Of a DNA stretch of 64,000 bases, positions 29,936-46,090 are shown one piece after another (position 1 is the stretch's first letter; each line of letters opens with the position of its first letter). The notes beneath the pieces were generated by a model. It made no database searches, was not told where the DNA came from, and saw only the letters and a list, made by a program, of their open reading frames with translations. Both the position numbers and the translations under genes were made by a program. Location of the stretch: NCBI RefSeq assembly GCF_036785885.1, contig NC_092323.1, forward strand, positions 12,036,501 through 12,100,500, in the 5' to 3' direction. Source of the DNA: Coffea arabica (taxonomy: Eukaryota; Streptophyta; Magnoliopsida; Gentianales; Rubiaceae).

Positions 29936-30029
29936 ACAAAAAAAAACATATATCACCTTAGCAAATACTGTTCATTGTATTCAATTGATTTTTTCAAGGT
30001 TTGAACAGTTAAATGCTTGCGAATTCTGC

Positions 30030-30036
30030 TATAAAA
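30030..30036 (+). promoter_or_regulatory. TATA box of UGT copy 1
   Basis: TATAAAA 45-51 bp before the chosen ATG at 30081. Because it lies downstream of the earlier in-frame ATG at 29985, it argues against that longer start. Confidence 0.6.
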
Positions 30037-30080
30037 TCACCAACGCCGAATCAACTTTAACCAGTAAAAGTTTCCCATTC

Positions 30081-31499
30081 ATGGCGGACGAAAGAAAGGT
30101 GCACATAGTAATGTTTCCATGGCTAGCATTTGGCCATATAATCCCATATTTAGAGCTCTCCAAGCTTATAGCTAAAAAGGGTCACAAAGTTTCCTTTGTT
30201 TCCACCCCAAGAAACATCGATCGTCTCCCAAAACAACCTCCAAATCTAGCCCATCATCTAAAATTTGTCAAAATTCCCTTACCCCTTATTGAAAATCTCC
30301 CTGAAAATGCAGAAGCCACAATTGATCTACCCTACAATAAAGTCAAGTACCTCAAACTAGCCTGTGACGCCCTCCAACAGCCCATAACTGAATTTCTTCA
30401 ACGAACTTGTCCTGATTGGATTCTCTACGATTTTCCTTCTTATTGGATACCCTCTATTGCATCTAAGCTGAATATCCATACAGCCTATTTCAGTATCTTT
30501 ACGGCAGCGTTTTTGGGATTCTTGGGGCCGACGGAAGTTTTGAAGGGCGATGAAGATGGCAGAAAAACGGCCGAAGACTTCATTGTCAAACCAAAATGGG
30601 TTCCTTTTGAGACGAACGTTGCTTTCAAGTTGTTTGAGATTCTTCGAATATTTGATAGCATAGAAGGCGATGAAGAGAATATTTCTGACATTTGGCGTGT
30701 GGGAGCTGCAATTGAAAATTGTGATGTATTGGCTGTAAGAAGTTGTTCCGAATTTGAACCAAAATGGTTAAAAGTTTTGGAGGAAATTTACCAAAAGCCA
30801 GTAGTTCCAGTAGGTCAATTGCCCACTACTGGAAATAATGATGATGGAGATGAGGAGAAAGATGAAGCATGGAGGTTTATGAAAGAGTGGCTCGACAAGC
30901 AAGCAAAAGGCTCAGTTGTTTATGTAGCTTTCGGGAGCGAGGCGAAACCAAGTCAAGCTGAACTCAATGAGATTTCCCTGGGTTTGGAGTTGTCTGGCTT
31001 GCCATTTTTCTGGGTTTTAAGGAAGAAACGTGGAGGTGAAGATACTGAAGTGATTTTGCTGCCTGAAGGGTTTGAGAATCGGACTAAGGATCGTGGGGTG
31101 GTTTGCACAAGTTGGGCACCTCAGCTGAAGATATTGAGTCACGAGTCGGTGGGCGGGTTCTTGACTCACTCAGGTTGGAGTTCTGTTGTGGAGGCTGTAC
31201 AGTTTGAGAAGCCTCTTATTTTGCTGACCTTTCTTGCTGATCAAGGGATAAATGCGAGGGTTTTGGAGGAGAAAAAGGTGGGGTATCCCATTCCTAGAGA
31301 TGACTCGGACGGGTCGTTTACGAGAGACTCGGTGGCCGAGTCACTAAAGTTGGTGATGTTTGAGGAGGGGGGGAAAATTTATAGAGACAAAATTAAGGAA
31401 ATGAAGGGCATGTTTTGTGATGAGGGTAGACAAGATAGGTATGTGGAGAATTTGTTGACCTTTCTTCAAAGCTATAGAAGTGTAAAAGATGACAAATAA
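30081..31499 (+). CDS. UDP-glycosyltransferase, UGT91-like (copy 1)
   Basis: Family-1 glycosyltransferase, probably cytosolic, moving a sugar from UDP-sugar to a small molecule. UGT91-type enzymes often lengthen the sugar chain of flavonoid or terpenoid glycosides, and the closest annotated relatives I recall are called UDP-rhamnose:rhamnosyltransferase 1; donor and acceptor here are inference. It is a single exon of 472 aa, normal length. Visible: N-terminal FPWLAFGH with catalytic His19, partner Asp near 117 in WILYDF, FVSTPRNIDRLP, ENLPENAEAT, VVYVAFGSEA, and the 44-residue PSPG box at 345-388 ending ADQ. Odd: the box reads THSGWSS where the family has THCGWSS, a change shared with the copy at 35.3 kb. 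An in-frame ATG at 29985 would add 32 residues but lies upstream of the TATA box and outside the conserved start. Confidence 0.93.
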   Translation: MADERKVHIVMFPWLAFGHIIPYLELSKLIAKKGHKVSFVSTPRNIDRLPKQPPNLAHHLKFVKIPLPLIENLPENAEATIDLPYNKVKYLKLACDALQQPITEFLQRTCPDWILYDFPSYWIPSIASKLNIHTAYFSIFTAAFLGFLGPTEVLKGDEDGRKTAEDFIVKPKWVPFETNVAFKLFEILRIFDSIEGDEENISDIWRVGAAIENCDVLAVRSCSEFEPKWLKVLEEIYQKPVVPVGQLPTTGNNDDGDEEKDEAWRFMKEWLDKQAKGSVVYVAFGSEAKPSQAELNEISLGLELSGLPFFWVLRKKRGGEDTEVILLPEGFENRTKDRGVVCTSWAPQLKILSHESVGGFLTHSGWSSVVEAVQFEKPLILLTFLADQGINARVLEEKKVGYPIPRDDSDGSFTRDSVAESLKLVMFEEGGKIYRDKIKEMKGMFCDEGRQDRYVENLLTFLQSYRSVKDDK

Positions 31500-31907
31500 G
31501 GAATGTTCGAAGTGAGAAGAGGGGATGATTTGCTCTTGTATTTGCCATTTGGAAATTCGACTTCATTGAACTTTTGCAGAATCAACACTCCAGCCATGAT
31601 TGGATGCCTTGACGAAAATGATAAAGGAGTTAGAAAAGAAAATTGTTGTATCCATTGGGGTCAAATTGAGTTTTGTGGGGGAAATAAATGGTTGATATGG
31701 TAAGAAGTTAGATTGGATTTTTTTTTCCATCAGAAATAAAATTCATTTTTCTGTCATAGATCATTTAAATTCTTTGATGTCATTGTCAAGGCTTCCAGCA
31801 TAAGTGAAATGACAAATTTTCAAACTCGAGGTGCCAGAGAATAAAACAAAACGCGATCAATTTGACAAGGCAGATGCCTCCGTTTGGAAATTTGACTAAT
31901 CAGAAAC
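31500..31907. other. 3' region of UGT copy 1
   Basis: Probable 3' untranslated sequence. A 66-codon open frame from 31503 has no recognisable domain and is not called a gene. Confidence 0.6.
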
Positions 31908-32125
31908 GGAAATTTGCCAAATTGGTCTCTAACATTTACCAAAAATACTTTTTTAGTCCCTAACATATAAAATCAGCCAAAATTATCCTTCATATTTAAA
32001 TTGTGATCCAATTTGATCCTAATGCTTGTTTTTGCTCATTTCTCCGGCTAAAAATAACACGTCTCCCTCACGTGGTCATATTTTTAGGAGCAAAATTGAA
32101 AAACCCATTTCATTACCGGTTGAAA
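31908..32125 (+). repeat. Left terminal inverted repeat of the Pack-MULE
   Basis: It matches the reverse complement of 32893-33111 over its whole length with scattered substitutions, up to an ACCGGTTGAAA motif at the inner edge. It contains CTCACGTGGTCATATTTTTA. Confidence 0.85.
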
Positions 32126-32205
32126 GTAAAAGGATAAGGGACCACCACCCCCTTTTCATATTTCTTCCTCAAATTACAGTTTCAAGAAACCCTAAATTGC
32201 ATCCC

Positions 32206-32757
32206 CTAATTAACAAGCATAACTTGGAAGTGTAATTTTGCCATAATGAACTTGAGCACTTTGACCAGATGAAAAAGTGCAAGATCTGTTTCCTTGGCCA
32301 AATCTTCTTTCATTTCTATTGCTGAAAGGGATAAAATCACAATTCCTGCATCACATGCCACAAATCCAATCAGATCCTTCATTTGATCATGTAGCTCGTC
32401 GAATTTCTCTTGCTGTTGCCTGAAGAGAACTCTCAGGAACCTTACTCCCTCGTGGAGTATTAGCATTTGATCCTTCACCAGAACTGAGAAACTTAGAAAA
32501 TGTTCTTGTAGCTCCACAACATTATACAGGAGACAATAAATAAATTTGGCCAATAGATGCTTATTCTTCTCCAGCGCTAAAGTGTGTGAGGATCTTGATA
32601 ACTTTGAAGCTATCAGGACATGGATATAAGTTTCTCGGACTTGAGGATCAACAAGATCAATCTCCCTGTGTATCAGTTGAGAAATTTGAGATTCCATTTC
32701 CTTGAACACTTGTTCCCTCTTGCACCCTTCCAAGGAGATTTCCTTGCACCCTTCCAA
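32206..32757 (-). pseudogene. Captured fragment resembling the N-terminal region of R1A-type NLR resistance proteins
   Basis: Open for 183 codons. The sequence HREIDLVDPQVRETYIHVL.., LLYNVVELQEHFLSF.., GVRFLRVLFRQQQEKFDELH.., DLIGFVACDAGIVILSL and TDLALFHLVKVLKFIMA looks, from memory, like the helical segment ahead of the NB-ARC domain in late-blight R1A/R1B-like proteins of asterids. No P-loop, NB-ARC or LRR is present, so it cannot be a working receptor. It ends at a stop just inside the left terminal repeat. A short duplication near its start gives a repeated EGCK motif. It lies wholly inside the Pack-MULE. The long open frame means capture is recent or the frame is retained; the family call is recognition only. 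Confidence 0.55.
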
Positions 32758-32892
32758 AGAATAAATTTCCTTGCACCTCCTCCATTTTACTCTTCAAAGG
32801 TTAGCTTCTTTATCCCAATTTCTTACTACTGTGTTTTCCTTCTTCAATTTCAATGGGTTAGTGAGGCAATTAGATGAAGGAAAGATGGCTTT

Positions 32893-33111
32893 TTTCAACC
32901 GGTAGTGAAATGTGTTTTCTAATTTTGCCTCTAAAAATATGACCACGTGAGAGAGACGTGCTATTTTTAGCCGGAGAAATGAGCAAAAACGAGCATTATG
33001 ACCAAATTGGATCACAATTTAAATGTGAGGAACAATTTTGGCTGATTTTATATGTTAGGGACTCAAAAAGTATTTTTGGTAAATGTTAGGGACCAATTTG
33101 GCAAATTTTCC
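32893..33111 (-). repeat. Right terminal inverted repeat of the Pack-MULE
   Basis: Inverted partner of 31908-32125, ending TTTGGCAAATTTTCC directly before the ATCAGAATA flank. Confidence 0.85.
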
Positions 33112-33144
33112 ATCAGAATAATTTTGTTTTGTTATTCCCCAAAC

Positions 33145-33552
33145 TAGGGGTGCAAGCCAAGTGCGCCACGAGACACAAGCTTCGAGAGCAACTCGAGCAA
33201 CTATTTAATTTAGGTTCGAATTTGTGAAGAAGAGATAGGTTGAGTGGTACAGAAAAAAAGAATGTAAGTGAGAAATTCAAATTCGAGTTGCGTTCGAACT
33301 ACTTTATTAACGGGTAATTCCAACCGAATTCGAGCATGAATAAGTGATACTAGATCTTCGATGAGCCTTAGTGAGTATACCCCTTCTTTAGAATTATATA
33401 AAATATTAATTTACATTACATGAACTCGATTGAGTTTGATTAAACTTAATAAAGCTTTCGAATTCGAGTTAGGTAAAATAAAGTGGAGCTCAAATTTAAA
33501 CTTAGCTTTTAAAAGTTTGACAAAAACTCAACTCGACTCAATTATACTCCTA
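33145..33552. mobile_element. Non-autonomous hAT-type element, diverged
   Basis: It starts TAGGGGTGCAAGCC, and the reverse complement of its end starts TAGGAGTATAATTGAG. The 8-bp flanks are CCCCAAAC and CTCTAAAT: 5 of 8 match and all three differences are C/T. The interior is rich in TCGAGTT/AACTCGA motifs. No open frame. It lies 33 bp after the Pack-MULE. Confidence 0.6.
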
Positions 33553-35328
33553 CTCTAAATAGGTTTTTTAATTAATATTTTTTATTTCATATATATCATA
33601 CTGCAAAATCGAAAAATGTAAATAGTAGAAAATTTTTCAGATAATCTGCAATATAAACGGACCATATGTTCAAACAAACTTTGTGGCTTCTTCAGCGTGA
33701 ACATAGTCCATCAGTAAATGTGTCTAGAAATACTGAAAATCAGTCACTAAATAATGGGATTTCCATGCAAATGCGGTATTACTTCTAGTAGTTTATCCCA
33801 TGCATGACATCTAGTTGTCTTATACCCTAACATATATGGTTAACTGGGATTGTACTTTTTGTACTTTGGTTCTTTGATACAGGGAAAAACGGAGGGAGAA
33901 ATGAAAGTACGAAAATTCGGATTACCAATTTGAGATAGATTCAAGGTTTACCCATAATTCACGAGACAAATTCTAATGGTTAAAGAATACTTCTAAAGTA
34001 CATATATTCATTGATAGTAGTATTTTTTAAGTGCAATTTTTGGTAATTTGGCACCCAGTACAATGGACATGAAATTTAATTTTTACCTTTTTGTCCTAAT
34101 TTTACTGTGCATAAAATCCTTAAATGCACAATCGTTTTCAGGTACGTGCCACGGTCAGCTGGCTAGTGTGGGCTGTGTAACTGGGTCGGGCTGCCTGATT
34201 ATCTAAATATTATTGAGAACTCCTTGCACTGATGAACCTTGGGCCTTCTTCCTGTCACAAGCTGGTCGACTTTGTATGGAAGACACAAGCTTTTCAACTT
34301 ATATGGAAGATTAGAGATTTTTTTTTTGGCAATTGAAAAAGTTTGGATGGATTGGATTCTGGCTACTGTCATGGATTAAGATATGCTTTCAAAATCATAG
34401 GTCAAATTTTTACGGATCATCGTCTACCAACACAGCTTGCATATTAACAGTGAGATTTGAACACGTGACTTATTTTTAATAAAAAAAATGATCCGTCTTT
34501 ATCAACTGAACCAACCAACTTGTATTTGAAAAAATTAGAGAGTTACACAACCAGAATTGACATTATACTTTTATTGGATGTGGGGGGGGGGGGGGGGGGA
34601 AGAAGGCAATAGTTGTTATTGATCTTTTAGCGAAAATGAGCTCGAACTTAAAATCAAGAATTCCTTCGAAAAAAAAACTTAAAATCAAGGATTACGTTAT
34701 TTCTTGATCCTCCTCATCCAGTTAAATCTGTTCTAGTTGCAAAATTGATGTGAGCATCCTATCATCGTTCAATTAATATGTAATGGCCGTTAGGCCTCCT
34801 TATGACCAAAAAAGAGAATCTCCACAACTATAACAACTATTGCAAAGGTCAATCAAATTGCAATTTTTAACACGAAAAACAAAAAGCAACATTGTTCTAG
34901 CAAATTAAGTTGTTTTGCTTTTGCTCAATGATCCACATCATGTCAGCTCATGTCTTATGTTGGAAAACTTACATGAACGTATGTGAATGGTAATTCTGAT
35001 CATCACAGATTGAATAAACACTCCAAAGAAAAAAAAAGAAGCCAGGAATTGACATTAACAGTTTACCACTATCAAATTTATTCATAGTACTCTTTTATAG
35101 CAATTTGTATAATTCAATTTCATTTCGCGTTGCAATCGAGTTAAAATTAGACTGTTCTTATTTTTAACATGATTAACCATTCTAAAAGGATACCAATAAA
35201 CATGAGAATGTGAACATTTCATTTTCGAAATTAAAATTCACTTTGATATAGGACAATTGCAAGAATTCATTCAACTCTTTCCCCTTCCAATCATAGTACT
35301 GCAAAGAAACTTTACAGATAGTCCAAAT
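33553..35328. other. Intergenic, no gene recognised
   Basis: A+T-rich, no coding signal. A G18 run is listed separately. The last hundred bases are probably the 3' region of the minus-strand UGT. Confidence 0.6.
34582..34599. repeat. Run of 18 guanines
   Basis: Uninterrupted G18 in an A+T-rich setting. It could form G-quadruplex structures, and its exact length is prone to sequencing error. Confidence 0.85.
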
Positions 35329-36753
35329 TTATTTCTCTTCTTTTGCACTTTTGTAGCTTTGAAGAAAGTTCAACAAAGTCTCAACGTAGCCATCTTGCCG
35401 ACTCTCATCACAAAATAATCTCCTCATCTCCTTACTTTTGTCCCTGTATATCTTTCCCTCATCCTCAATCATCACCAGCCTGAGTGACTCGGCCACCGAG
35501 TCCCTCGTAAATGACCCGTCCGAGTCATCTCTAGGAATCGGATACCCCATCTTTTTCTCCTCCAAGACCCTCGCATTTATTCCTTGGTCAGCCAACATTG
35601 TCAGCAAAATAAGAGCCTTCTCAAACTGAATAGCCTCCACAACCGAACTCCAACCCGAGTGAGTCAAGAACCCACCCACTGAGTCGTGACTCAGTATCTT
35701 CAACTGTGGCGCCCAACTGGCACAAACCACCCCCCGATCCTTGGTCCGGTCCTCAAATCCTTCAGGCAGCTCAATCACCTCAGTATCTTCACCACCCCGT
35801 TTCGTCCGCAAAACCCAGAAAAATGGCAAACCAGACAGCTCCAAACCTAGAGAAATTTCATTGAGTTCAGCTTGACTCGGTTTCGCCTCGCTCCCGAATG
35901 CTACATAAACAACTGACTCTCTTTCTTGTTTGTCAAGCCACTCTTTTATAGGTCTCCATGCTTCATCTTTTCCCTCATCTGCATCATTGTTGCCGGTGGT
36001 CGGCAGTTGACCGACCGGAATCACCGGCTTCTGATAAATCTCCTCCATAAGCTGTAACCATTCGGGTTCAAACTCAGAACAGCTCCTTATAGCCAAGAAA
36101 TCGCAGTTTTCAATCGAAGATCCGCCCCGGAATATGTCGGAGATGGGCTCTTCATCCCCGATCAAACTGTCAACGAGTCGCGAAATCTCAAACAACTTAA
36201 AAGCAATGTTCGTCTCAAAAGAAACCCATTTGGGTTTCACAGTGAAATCCTGGGGCGTTTTCCTGTCTTCTCCATTGCCCTTCATCACTTCGACGGGGCC
36301 GCAAAAGCCCAAAAATGGCGCAGTATAGATACTGAAAAAAGCTGTACGGATGTTCAGCTTAGATGCAACAGATGGTATCCAATAAGGAGCGAAATCGAAG
36401 AGGACCCAATCAGGACAAGTTTGTTGAAGAAATTCAGATATGGGTTGTTGAAGGCCGTCACAGGCTAGTTTGAGGTACTTGACTTTGTTGTAGGGTAGAT
36501 CAGTAGTGGCCTCTGCATTTTCAGGGAGATTTTCGATATGGGGTAAGGGAATTTTGACAAATTTCAGATGACGGGTTAGATTTGGAGGTGGTTTTGGGAG
36601 GCGATCGATGTTTCTTGGGGTGGAAAGGAAGGAAACCTTGTGACCCCTTTTAGCTATGAGCTTGGAGAGCTCTAAGTATGGGATCATGTGGCCGAAGGCC
36701 AGCCAAGGAAACATTACTATGTGTAATTTGCCGTCTTCAGCCATGGATGTCAA
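35329..36753 (-). CDS. UDP-glycosyltransferase, UGT91-like (copy 2)
   Basis: Intronless family-1 glycosyltransferase of 474 aa and the nearest relative of copy 1: the two are near-identical over long stretches in inverted orientation. Visible: FPWLAFGH with the catalytic His, WVLFDFAPYW with the partner Asp, FLSTPRNIDRLP, VVYVAFGSEA, and a PSPG box at about 347-390 ending ADQ. It shares with copy 1 the THSGWSS form of the box. The start could be either of two ATGs three codons apart (MTSMAED..); the second (36744) is nearer the family norm. A TATA box lies about 52 bp upstream of the first. Donor and acceptor sugars are not readable; a role in small-molecule glycoside biosynthesis is inferred from family. 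Confidence 0.93.
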   Translation of the reverse strand: MTSMAEDGKLHIVMFPWLAFGHMIPYLELSKLIAKRGHKVSFLSTPRNIDRLPKPPPNLTRHLKFVKIPLPHIENLPENAEATTDLPYNKVKYLKLACDGLQQPISEFLQQTCPDWVLFDFAPYWIPSVASKLNIRTAFFSIYTAPFLGFCGPVEVMKGNGEDRKTPQDFTVKPKWVSFETNIAFKLFEISRLVDSLIGDEEPISDIFRGGSSIENCDFLAIRSCSEFEPEWLQLMEEIYQKPVIPVGQLPTTGNNDADEGKDEAWRPIKEWLDKQERESVVYVAFGSEAKPSQAELNEISLGLELSGLPFFWVLRTKRGGEDTEVIELPEGFEDRTKDRGVVCASWAPQLKILSHDSVGGFLTHSGWSSVVEAIQFEKALILLTMLADQGINARVLEEKKMGYPIPRDDSDGSFTRDSVAESLRLVMIEDEGKIYRDKSKEMRRLFCDESRQDGYVETLLNFLQSYKSAKEEK

Positions 36754-41509: not shown

Positions 41510-44500
41510 ATGGCGGAAGGCACCAGAATGAAGGGATTTGAGGAATCGCTAAAGAAGCAAGATGCGAAAATCCAAGCTATCCTCGAATCCAGTACAATCG
41601 AACGCCAAGCCTTGGAAGAAAAGATGGAATCTAACTACGTGGATATGAAGGCTCTGGTGGAAGCAAACAATGTTGAACTAAAGGAAGAAATGAAGAATTT
41701 CATGGTCACGATGAGTGCTCAGTTCAATAGCTTCATGCGGAACCTGCAGGGAGAAAAAGGAATTCTAGGCCAATCTCCTAATTCATCTGAGCGCCAACTT
41801 CATCAAACACTTAGGAAAGGTCCAGAAGGAAGCAATCCCTTGTTGGGAGAGAAGAGTCGTTTCGCAATCGGAGTTCCCAAATTGGAATTCCCCAGCTTTG
41901 GAGGCTCCAATCCTCGCGAATGGACCCGGAAATGTGCGAAGTTTTTTCAACTATACCAGATTCCAGAGGGTCAGCAATTGGATGTAGCTGAACTGCATCT
42001 GGAAGGCAAGGCTGACCTATGGTATCAAAGCTTTAAGAAGGATCGAGGAGTAGTGCAGTGGGAAGAGTTTGCCTCAGAACTTTGCAGACGATTCGGGGAT
42101 ATAGGAGGAGATGACGTGGTTGAGGAGTTCAACAAGTTGTACCAGGATTCATCATTGCTGGCATATCAGGAAAAATTTGAAGAATTAAGAGCTGCCGTCA
42201 TGGTGAAGCTCCCTCTCCTTTCTGAGTCCTATTATGTTTCTAGTTTTTTGAGTGGGCTAAAGGAGGAGATCAAGGCTGCTGTGAAGATGCACATGCCTCA
42301 GACTTTGCAGGCAGCATTCGAAAAGGCTAGGTGGCAAGAGCAGTATTTGAGTATCATCTTAAAGCAGAATAAAACACCAGTGAAGGTATCTCCACCAATT
42401 TCCTCTGGTAGCAGACAAACTCACCTTAATGATCTGAGCCACAAGAAACCTGCAGCTCAGGTGTTTGAAAACAATATTAAGAAGGATTCTCCTCAAGGCT
42501 ATAAGAGAATCTCTCCTACAGAATTTCAGTATAGGAAGGATCACAACCTCTGCTTCAGATGTGGGGAAAGATTTTTCCCTGGACATATCTGTAAGAATAG
42601 AGGTATACATTTAGTGCTCGCAGATGAAGAAGGATTGCTGGACACTGAAGTCAACGAAGAAGAAGGAGAAATTATTGAGTATCAAGGGAACAAGTCGGGC
42701 AGAGATGTAGCTTTCTCACTACACTCTGTCTCAGGACACATGTCTTCCAATACCATTAAGATGCTAGGACACTTTAAGGGGCATGATTTATCCGTTCTGT
42801 TAGATGGGGGAAGTACCAACTGTTTTATTAAACCAACCATTGCTCAACTACATCCGGATTGTGTGCAGAATCATAAGCCTTTCAGGGTAAGGATAGCTGA
42901 TGGAAAGGAGTTAACGTGCAATCAGTGGATTCCAAATATGAAATGGGATATGCAGGGTCACAACTTCACTAAGAATGTATATGTGTTAGACTTAGAGCCG
43001 TATGATTTAATCCTCGGGGTAGATTGGATGAAACATTACAGTCCAATGACTTTTGACTTTAAGGAGCTGACATTATCCTTTGATAAGGAAGGTGAAACTG
43101 TGTTGCTGCAAGGGGATGCACACACGGCCAAGGTGAGGATGAGGCAGGGGACAGCAGCACAAAAGTATATCAGGAACAAAATCAGGACTTCTTTGCAGCA
43201 CTCTTGCATGATCAGAGTACAGCACAGTCAGGTAACTCCTGTACCCAAATCTATTACTCAATTGCTTGACCAATACCAGGACATTTTTACGGAACCTACG
43301 TCTTTACCCCCTGTCAGAGAACTAGACCACCAAATACCCCTCATGCCTGATGCCAAACCCTTCAAAATTAATCCCTACAGATATCCTCACATGCAGAAAT
43401 CAGAAATAGAAAGGCAGGTCAAAGACCTGCTGCAATCTGGTATCATACAACCCAGCCACAGCCCCTTTGCATCTCCAGCTCTCCTAGTCAAAAAAAAGGA
43501 TGGAAGCTGGAGGTTGTGCATTGACTATAGGCAGCTCAAAAACCTTACCATCAAAGATAAATTTCCCATTCCTATCATCGATGACCTGCTTGATGAACTA
43601 CACAATGCAAGGATATTTTCTAAACTAGATTTACGGTCAGGTTACCATCAAATTCGTATGACTCCCTCTGATGTTCCTAAAACAGCTTTTAGAACTCACT
43701 CTGGCCTTTATGAATACCTAGTGATGCCTTTTGGCCTCACCAATGCTCCTGCAACATTTCAGGCTTTAATGAATTCCATATTCGAACCTTTCATCAGAAA
43801 ATTTGTGCTTGTATTTTTTGATGATATCCTTGTTTATAGTCCAGACCTGAATAGCCATCTTAAACACCTATCCCTTGTCCTTAAAACCTTGAGAACCCAT
43901 TTCTTATATGCTAAGATGTCTAAATGTTCTTTTGGTCAAGATAAAATTGAGTATTTGGGACATGTAGTTACGGCTGAGGGTGTTTCTGCTGATCCTACAA
44001 AAGTAGAGGCAATGTTGTCCTGGCCAGTTCCTGGTAACATTAAGGCTCTTAGAGGATTCCTTGGATTGACTGGTTACTACAGGAGGTTTGTTAAGGGCTA
44101 TGGAAAAATAGCAAAGCCCCTAACTGAGTTGCTTAAAAAGGATAGTTTCGTCTGGAATGAGGCAGCTACATCAGCTTTTGAGCAGCTCAAGGTGGCTATG
44201 ACACAGGCTCCTGTACTGGCTTTACCCAACTTCTCCTTGCCCTTTGTACTAGAAACGGATGCAAGTCAAACAGCCATGGGGGCAGTCCTGATGCAGCAAG
44301 GGAGACCACTAGCATTTATGAGTCAAGTTTTAGGAACAAAAAATCAGTCACTATCCATTTATGAAAAAGAATTGCTATCTCTAATCACTGCTGTGGGAAA
44401 ATGGAGGCATTACTTATTGGGATCTCATTTCATCATCAGAACCGACCATGAAAGTCTGAAATATTTGCTGGAACAAAAGATCACTACTTCCCTACAGCAG

Positions 44501-46090
44501 AAATGGCTTGCTAAATTGATGGGATTGGACTATGAAATCCAATACAAGAAAGGTAAGGATAATATAGTCGCAGATGCTCTTTCTAGAAGGCAAGGAGGTA
44601 CTACAGGAAGAAGCAAGCAGGAAGGTGACAAGGAAATTCACTCTATATCTGCAATCAAACCTCTATGGCTGTCCAAGGTATCAGAGAGTTACTCGGGAGA
44701 TGACAAGATCAAAGAAATATTAACAGCTCTCGCAATCGAAGGCTCTAGTACACCTGATTACTCCTACCTTCAGGGGATTATCAGGTACAAGGGGCGGGTA
44801 TACATTGGAGTTACCACTGATCTTAGGAAGCAACTTGTTAGTTGTATGCATGATTCTGCAATTGGAGGTCACTCGGGCATTCAGGGAACATACCAAAGGT
44901 TGAAGAGTTATTTCTTTTGGCCAGGGATGAAAAAGGAAGTAGAAGCATATGTTCAGGCTTGTGACATTTGCAAGAGAAGCAAAAATGAGCAAGTTAGTTA
45001 CCCAGGCTTACTACAGCCTCTCACAATACCAGAACAAGCTTGGCAACATATCTCAATGGATTTCATCGAAGGCTTGCCAAAATCCTTGGGACATGAGATC
45101 ATCATGGTGGTGGTGGATAGGTTTACCAAATATGCACATTTCATATCCATGGGGTCTCATTTCACAGCAAAGAGTGTCGCACTAGTGTTCTTCGAACAGA
45201 TCTATAAACTGCATGGATTGCCAGTGGATATTGTTTCTGATAGGGACAAGGTTTTCACCAGTTTGTTCTGGCAGGAGCTTTTTCATCAGGTGGGAACTAC
45301 CCTTAGTTTCTCATCTTCATATCATCCCCAATCTGATGGACAGACTGAGCGAGTAAATCGATGTCTGGAAACTTACTTGAGGGCTATGTGTTTACAACAG
45401 TCTGGCCACTGGAAGAGATGTTTGCCTGCAGCTGAGTGGTGGTACAACACCAATTTCCATTCTAGTTTACAGATGACACCCTTCCAAGCACTCTATGGTT
45501 ATAAACCAACACAGCTCTGCCTACAACCAGACAACACCCAAGTAGCTGCTGTGGAAGACTGGTTATCTGAGAGAGTGAATTGGAATTCCCTATTGAAGGA
45601 AAATCTGCTGCATGCTCAGAACCGTATGAAACAATTTGCAGACAGGCACAGGACCGAAAGGGCATTTGCCGAAGGGGATTGGGTTTACCTGAAGCTACAG
45701 CCTTATAGACAAACCACTGTGGCTGTTCGAAAGAATTTGAAGCTGGCAGCTAAGTATTATGGACCCTATCAAATTGAAAAAAAGGTTGGAGCAGTAGCCT
45801 ATAAACTCAAGCTGCCTCCCGGAGCTACAATTCACCCTGTATTTCATGTTTCGCTTTTAAAACCATCCACAAAGGGTGCTCCAGCGAGCACAATACTACC
45901 TCATCCAAATGAGGATGGCTCTTTTGCTATCATCCCTTCCTCTATACTGGATCGCAGATGGACTGATAGGGGTGGACACAAAGTGGAACAGATTCTGGTG
46001 CAATGGAAGGACTTACAGAAGGAGGATGCAACATGGGAAGACCTGTCAGTCATCAGGAGTCAATTTCCTGATTTCAATCCTAGAGACTAG
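41510..46090 (+). CDS. Fused gag-pol polyprotein of the Ty3/gypsy element
   Basis: 1526 codons in one frame. Parts in order: a coiled-coil-like head; gag (about 100-290); a zinc knuckle CFRC..GHIC near 348; aspartic protease ([10 protein letters not shown] near 430); reverse transcriptase ([16 protein letters not shown], then FFDDILVYS near 770); RNase H ([14 protein letters not shown]); integrase with an HHCC finger (about 1110-1165) and a D..D..E core (SDRDKVFTS.., [14 protein letters not shown]); and a C-terminal chromodomain-like segment ([18 protein letters not shown]). The order with the integrase last is Ty3/gypsy. The element looks whole. Confidence 0.95.

Follow-up and report, generated by a model that had tools for sequence, protein, structure and literature searches.

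A 64,000-nucleotide stretch of the Coffea arabica genome (the window, on contig C14) contains, at positions 31908–33111, a repeat-bounded element of 1,204 bp with a long open frame in its interior. A first-pass annotation regarded this element as a Pack-MULE with a resistance-gene fragment, and its location between UDP-glycosyltransferase (UGT) genes as unusual. It also hinted that a truncated NLR part might act as a decoy or regulator. The locus raises the questions of where the fragment came from and whether anything made from it is of use to the plant. We conclude with high confidence that the element is a Pack-MULE, from a line that captured R1-type CNL sequence once and then moved; it was probably silenced afterwards, and the fragment is most likely a decaying passenger that gives no useful protein.

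Structure of the element

The classification as a non-autonomous MULE (Pack-MULE) was based on inverted arms, other full-length copies and an empty homeologous site. Arm comparison and genome matches placed the left terminal inverted repeat (TIR) at 31908–32126 on the plus strand and the right one at 32893–33111 on the minus strand. The inverted arms (31910–32125 and 32893–33108) were 216 nt each, 92% complementary and 767 nt apart, in agreement with the ends of about 218 bp originally described. Inside the TIRs lie a left (32127–32233) and a right (32781–32892) subterminal stretch, both common to the elements L019, L020 and L021, whose matches covered query positions 1–326 or 3–326 on the left and began from query position 874 on the right. 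The stretch between them at 32234–32714, on the minus strand, was recognized by paralogue matches and PF12061 as a captured exon fragment from the N-terminal extension of an R1-type CNL. It adjoins a 66-bp junction filler (32715–32780) of repeated units, near-repeats of TTTCCTTGCAC(C), which was present in all four copies with the capture junction. The first 7 filler bases were matched by some R1-type paralogues, and no source was found among the genome matches for the remaining bases. MULE-family ends and subterminal stretches were thereby shown to enclose 481 bp of R1-type CNL sequence where relatives hold transposase pieces.

A 9-bp target duplication had also been described. Compared at the borders given by the first-pass annotation, the left copy ATCAGAAAC (31899–31907, plus strand) and the right copy ATCAGAATA (33112–33120, plus strand) were equal at 7 of 9 bases, and a script search for repeats at the element's borders returned, at best, 8 bp with one mismatch. 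The duplication is imperfect; it is nevertheless real, though decayed, since the empty homeologous site on C13 has a single copy of the target.

The open frame and its domain

The minus-strand frame at 32206–32757 comprised 195 codons from stop to stop. The 183 codons reported earlier were recovered when counting from a TTG, and the first ATG, at 32697, leaves 163 residues. About nine residues at the end of the frame derive from MULE sequence. A protein search against NLR N-terminal domains confirmed the proposed resemblance to R1A-type proteins: the Pfam profile PF12061, 'Late blight resistance protein R1', was matched with an E value of 3.1e-12 (46.9 bits, cutoff 28.7) by frame residues 14–157, corresponding to profile positions 124–272 of 295. 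Pfam detected only this part of PF12061 in the frame, and no NB-ARC, winged helix, LRR or other NLR domain; the frame is thus short of the combination of R1 N-terminal domain, NB-ARC and LRR that defines an R1-type NLR gene. A search of solved structures with the frame product returned nothing useful (best E 0.3), and the 163 residues were modelled poorly, with a mean pLDDT of 57.6 from nine sequences.

Elements with the same ends

Searching the genome (1.198 Gb, 131 contigs) with the whole element gave 105 matches, from the best 40 of 725 candidates scored, so that the family counts given here are lower bounds. Three other full-length copies, with 91–93% identity, were found elsewhere in the genome. 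We examined 21 two-ended elements, plus L021, the second end of which lies within L046; elements with one end only (L023, L026, L027, L029, L033, L037, L038 and L041) were left out. The ends of the window element were found on the 20 other two-ended elements, and 4 of the 21 contained the NLR capture. With a tolerance of up to 8 bases in the border positions, 15 of the 21 had a perfect target duplication of at least 9 bp (two in A runs and one off the expected border), one had a perfect duplication of 8 bp, and five, including the window element, had a duplication with one mismatch.

Pieces of a MuDR-type transposase occurred between the same ends. L019 contained DBD_Tnp_Mut (PF03108), L020 contained MULE (PF10551) and SWIM (PF04434) in separate pieces, and L021 had transposase sequence in common with both. 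The transposase frames of these three elements were all interrupted, and current activity is thus only putative. Further frames in L020 (9.2 kb) and L021 (about 9.8 kb), which we take to resemble a retrotransposon gag and a hAT-like transposase, respectively, are probably nested insertions.

The interior of L022 contained a RETICULATA-related fragment (PF11891, E 9e-42). Capture of this gene was seen in eight elements, L022, L024, L025, L028, L030, L036, L039 and L042, with the Pfam match obtained for L022; by BLAST, six others had the L022-type interior, and L030 had the same protein in reversed orientation. The possibility that the R1-like frame is the family's own coding content is ruled out by the transposase pieces and the RETICULATA-related fragment held by its relatives, and the initial assumption that these ends do not belong to a family normally coding this frame was upheld. 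A third group, consisting of seven elements of about 1.27 kb (L031, L032, L034, L035, L040, L043 and L044), had the same ends and an interior without an assigned origin; its members were 95–97% alike and looked younger. The single frame tested from this group, that of L031, had no match in Pfam.

Source of the captured fragment

The captured stretch was 88.5–91.3% identical to six close paralogue loci on C13 and C14 (L012–L017), which matched the whole or part of 32234–32721 (L017 over 430 bp only), and 80.7% identical to a seventh, L018. Stop-to-stop frames across the matched stretch extended over 1,300 codons in L012, 1,274 in L013, 1,268 in L015 and 1,271 in L018, and those in L014, L016 and L017 were shorter and interrupted. 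The three loci scanned with Pfam (L012, L013 and L015) had R1 N-terminal, NB-ARC, winged-helix and LRR domains, and the captured stretch corresponds to the region ahead of the NB-ARC domain. Besides the four copies and the six close loci, the best 40 of 163 candidates with an interior-only query included 30 places at 76–81% identity. An R1-type CNL, a host gene outside the transposon, supplied the interior, which is a copy of part of its N-terminal exon. The comparison with seven paralogue loci did not yield the exact donor: the highest identity to any copy was 93.2%, between L009 and L012. That the frame is open reflects its origin, an open exon having been copied with the reading frame preserved.

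Insertion history

At the homeologous position on C13, the match to the left flank of the element stopped at window position 31905 and that to the right flank started at 33112, with 91–92% identity in the flanks. The left match ended at 10222213 and the right began at 10222207, an overlap of seven bases. This is an empty site: C13 has a single target copy there and lacks the element. For L009, an empty site was found on C7, where the two flank matches overlapped by 9 bp. The pairs C13/C14 and C7/C8 were taken as homeologous on the basis of these and other flank matches.

A 101-bp query spanning the capture junction was found in four places in the genome (4 of 4 candidates), and the four captures clustered together in a FastTree tree with a local support of 0.965. 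The same junction in four places, together with this grouping, indicates one capture followed by movement. L010 (C8) and L011 (C7) were 92.7% identical along 1.5 kb on the left and 93.4% identical in the 137 bp adjoining the element on the right, and the alignment was also obtained as one match of 2.87 kb. Judging by these flank matches, L010 and L011 represent one shared insertion, which was most likely already in place when the two chromosome sets separated. The right 600-bp flanks, at 58%, might suggest separate insertions; this was countered by the left 1.5 kb and the adjoining right 137 bp. Beyond 137 bp on the right-hand side, the loci on C8 and C7 (L003 and L004) no longer match, one side having been altered later.

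Considering these results, the following sequence of events may be envisaged. A break inside a MULE would have been repaired by copying, leading to the capture, and the TTTCCTTGCAC-like units repeated at one junction suggest slippage during that copying. For animals, one study (PMC8277862) argues that such elements originate by gap filling with template switching. Transposase supplied by relatives may later have moved the element, and DNA methylation, strongest at the ends, may subsequently have silenced it, judging from the mutation spectrum. The captured fragment would be at most a source of small RNAs.

Mutation pattern in the four copies

Compared without correction, the four copies gave pairwise dN/dS values of 0.37–0.56. 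The frame was free of stops in three of the four, L011 having two, and the sole indel among them was of 9 bp and in frame. The capture had changed less than the ends, with 15, 9, 13 and 20 changes per copy against 24.5 predicted from the rates of the ends. We simulated neutral change by placing the observed number of changes randomly, 4,000 times, on the inferred ancestor of the four copies, using a mutation spectrum taken from the element's own ends. Observed counts of 22 synonymous, 33 nonsynonymous and 2 stop changes compared with simulated means of 19.0, 34.9 and 3.2, respectively. The probability of at least as many synonymous changes as observed was 0.24, that for the stops was 0.38, and that of at most one stop-bearing copy was 0.23; taken jointly, the synonymous count and the limit of one stop-bearing copy had a neutral probability of 0.07, which is low without being decisive. 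The nonsynonymous, synonymous and stop counts thus fit neutrality, and stops are still absent from most copies because too few changes have occurred so far to make them certain.

The difference between capture and ends was then divided by type of change, a split made post hoc, once the lower divergence of the capture had been seen, and restricted to columns in which at least three copies agreed (excluding 23 ambiguous columns, every gap column and the filler). C-to-T singletons occurred at 58 of 235 C/G sites in the ends vs 22 of 189 in the capture (P 0.0007), and other changes at 28 of 638 vs 23 of 466 sites (P 0.67). By context, C-to-T singletons in the ends were frequent throughout, affecting 7 of 20 CG, 5 of 20 CHG and 46 of 195 CHH sites; in the capture, CHH was low (11 of 139) and CHG stood at 9 of 38. 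C-to-T changes alone account for the lower divergence of the capture relative to the ends, which argues against selection on a protein, since such selection should reduce both kinds of change. Stronger methylation of the ends, as read from the mutation spectrum, explains the C-to-T pattern better than protein selection does. In rice and its relatives, methylation differs between the inner and the terminal parts of MULEs, according to an earlier study (PMC4858842).

Possible products of the fragment

The capture might serve as a source of small RNAs that dampen the R1-type NLR cluster, with RNA supplied by read-through from the convergent UGT genes or by the TIRs. The UGT frames at 29985–31499 (plus strand, 408 bp from the element) and 35329–36753 (minus strand, 2,217 bp from it) are both directed at the element, and its inverted ends, judging from the arms, could form a hairpin. 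For every one of the six close paralogues, 37–77 exact 21-mers were found in common with the window capture (three for L018), which in principle would allow small RNAs derived from the capture to target these genes, and captured genes are described as siRNA reservoirs in maize in passages of a 2026 review (PMC13317346). However, the C-to-T excess peaked at the ends and was less marked in the capture, which suggests that the capture was less targeted. We regard such dampening as rather unlikely; it overlaps with the passenger reading we prefer, which permits small RNAs without effect.

Within the window, the two UGT frames (29985–36753) are facing near-copies, with 86% identity over 600 bp, and C13 has the same pairing. 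Further along, at 41510–46090 on the plus strand, a frame of 1,526 codons runs without interruption; as we presume it to resemble a Ty3-type retrotransposon polyprotein, it is perhaps a recent insertion.

A broader proposal, in which a fragment of about 163 residues from the R1 domain, or small RNAs, would tune the R1-type NLR clusters of C13 and C14, the window copy being a regulator for one chromosome set at a locus where the other lacks one, appears quite improbable. It is very improbable that the captured frame gives a functional truncated NLR product, a decoy or regulator of R1-type receptors, under selection. The frame open in three of four copies, the single in-frame indel, the uncorrected dN/dS values and the smaller number of changes in the capture all speak in its favour. 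However, purifying selection drawn from the raw dN/dS and the fewer capture changes was not upheld by the simulation, in which synonymous, nonsynonymous and stop changes were as expected neutrally under the spectrum of the ends, or by the C-to-T split. The two stops in L011, the partial PF12061 match as the sole NLR domain and the poor structure model also speak against it. The decoy or regulator hint is thus unsupported, the copies evolving approximately neutrally once the C-to-T bias is allowed for.

An ordinary NLR pseudogene fragment lying between chance repeats and never transposed has virtually no probability: R1-type sequences are numerous (36 of the best 40 places lay outside the four copies), but the TIRs and the same junction in four places stand against it, and the empty sites of two insertions, the window copy and L009, rule it out.

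Relation to known elements and meaning

The window element shares with the Pack-MULEs of rice and other plants the MULE-family TIRs, the absence of transposase, target duplications of about 9 bp, an interior derived from a host gene, several copies per capture and transposase-bearing relatives; it differs in that the captured gene is an R1-type CNL. No published Pack-MULE with an R1-type CNL capture was found by title and beginning of abstract in the open-access subset. MULEs are well known to capture gene fragments in plants, as the review cited above states (PMC13317346), and a second gene has been taken up within this family, so that 'unusual' was too strong a word. The RETICULATA-capturing elements (L022 and seven others) have the same family ends and sizes of 1.2–1.9 kb, and differ in the captured gene (PF11891, tested in L022) and in the inner breakpoint (L025). 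Compared with R1-type CNL genes (late blight resistance protein R1 or R1A-like), the window segment is alike in PF12061 and in the N-terminal region of L012, L013 and L015; unlike them, it has only about 160 residues of the N-terminal extension and no match to NB-ARC, winged helix or LRR.

The window element is an ordinary Pack-MULE showing a known kind of gene capture. It offers a clean case, since a single genome contains the empty sites, homeologous insertions of both the shared and the unshared kind, transposase-bearing relatives and NLR relatives with long open frames. Furthermore, it illustrates that where the ends of a Pack-MULE mutate faster through C-to-T changes, neither an open frame nor low raw dN/dS inside it gives more than a weak indication of function.
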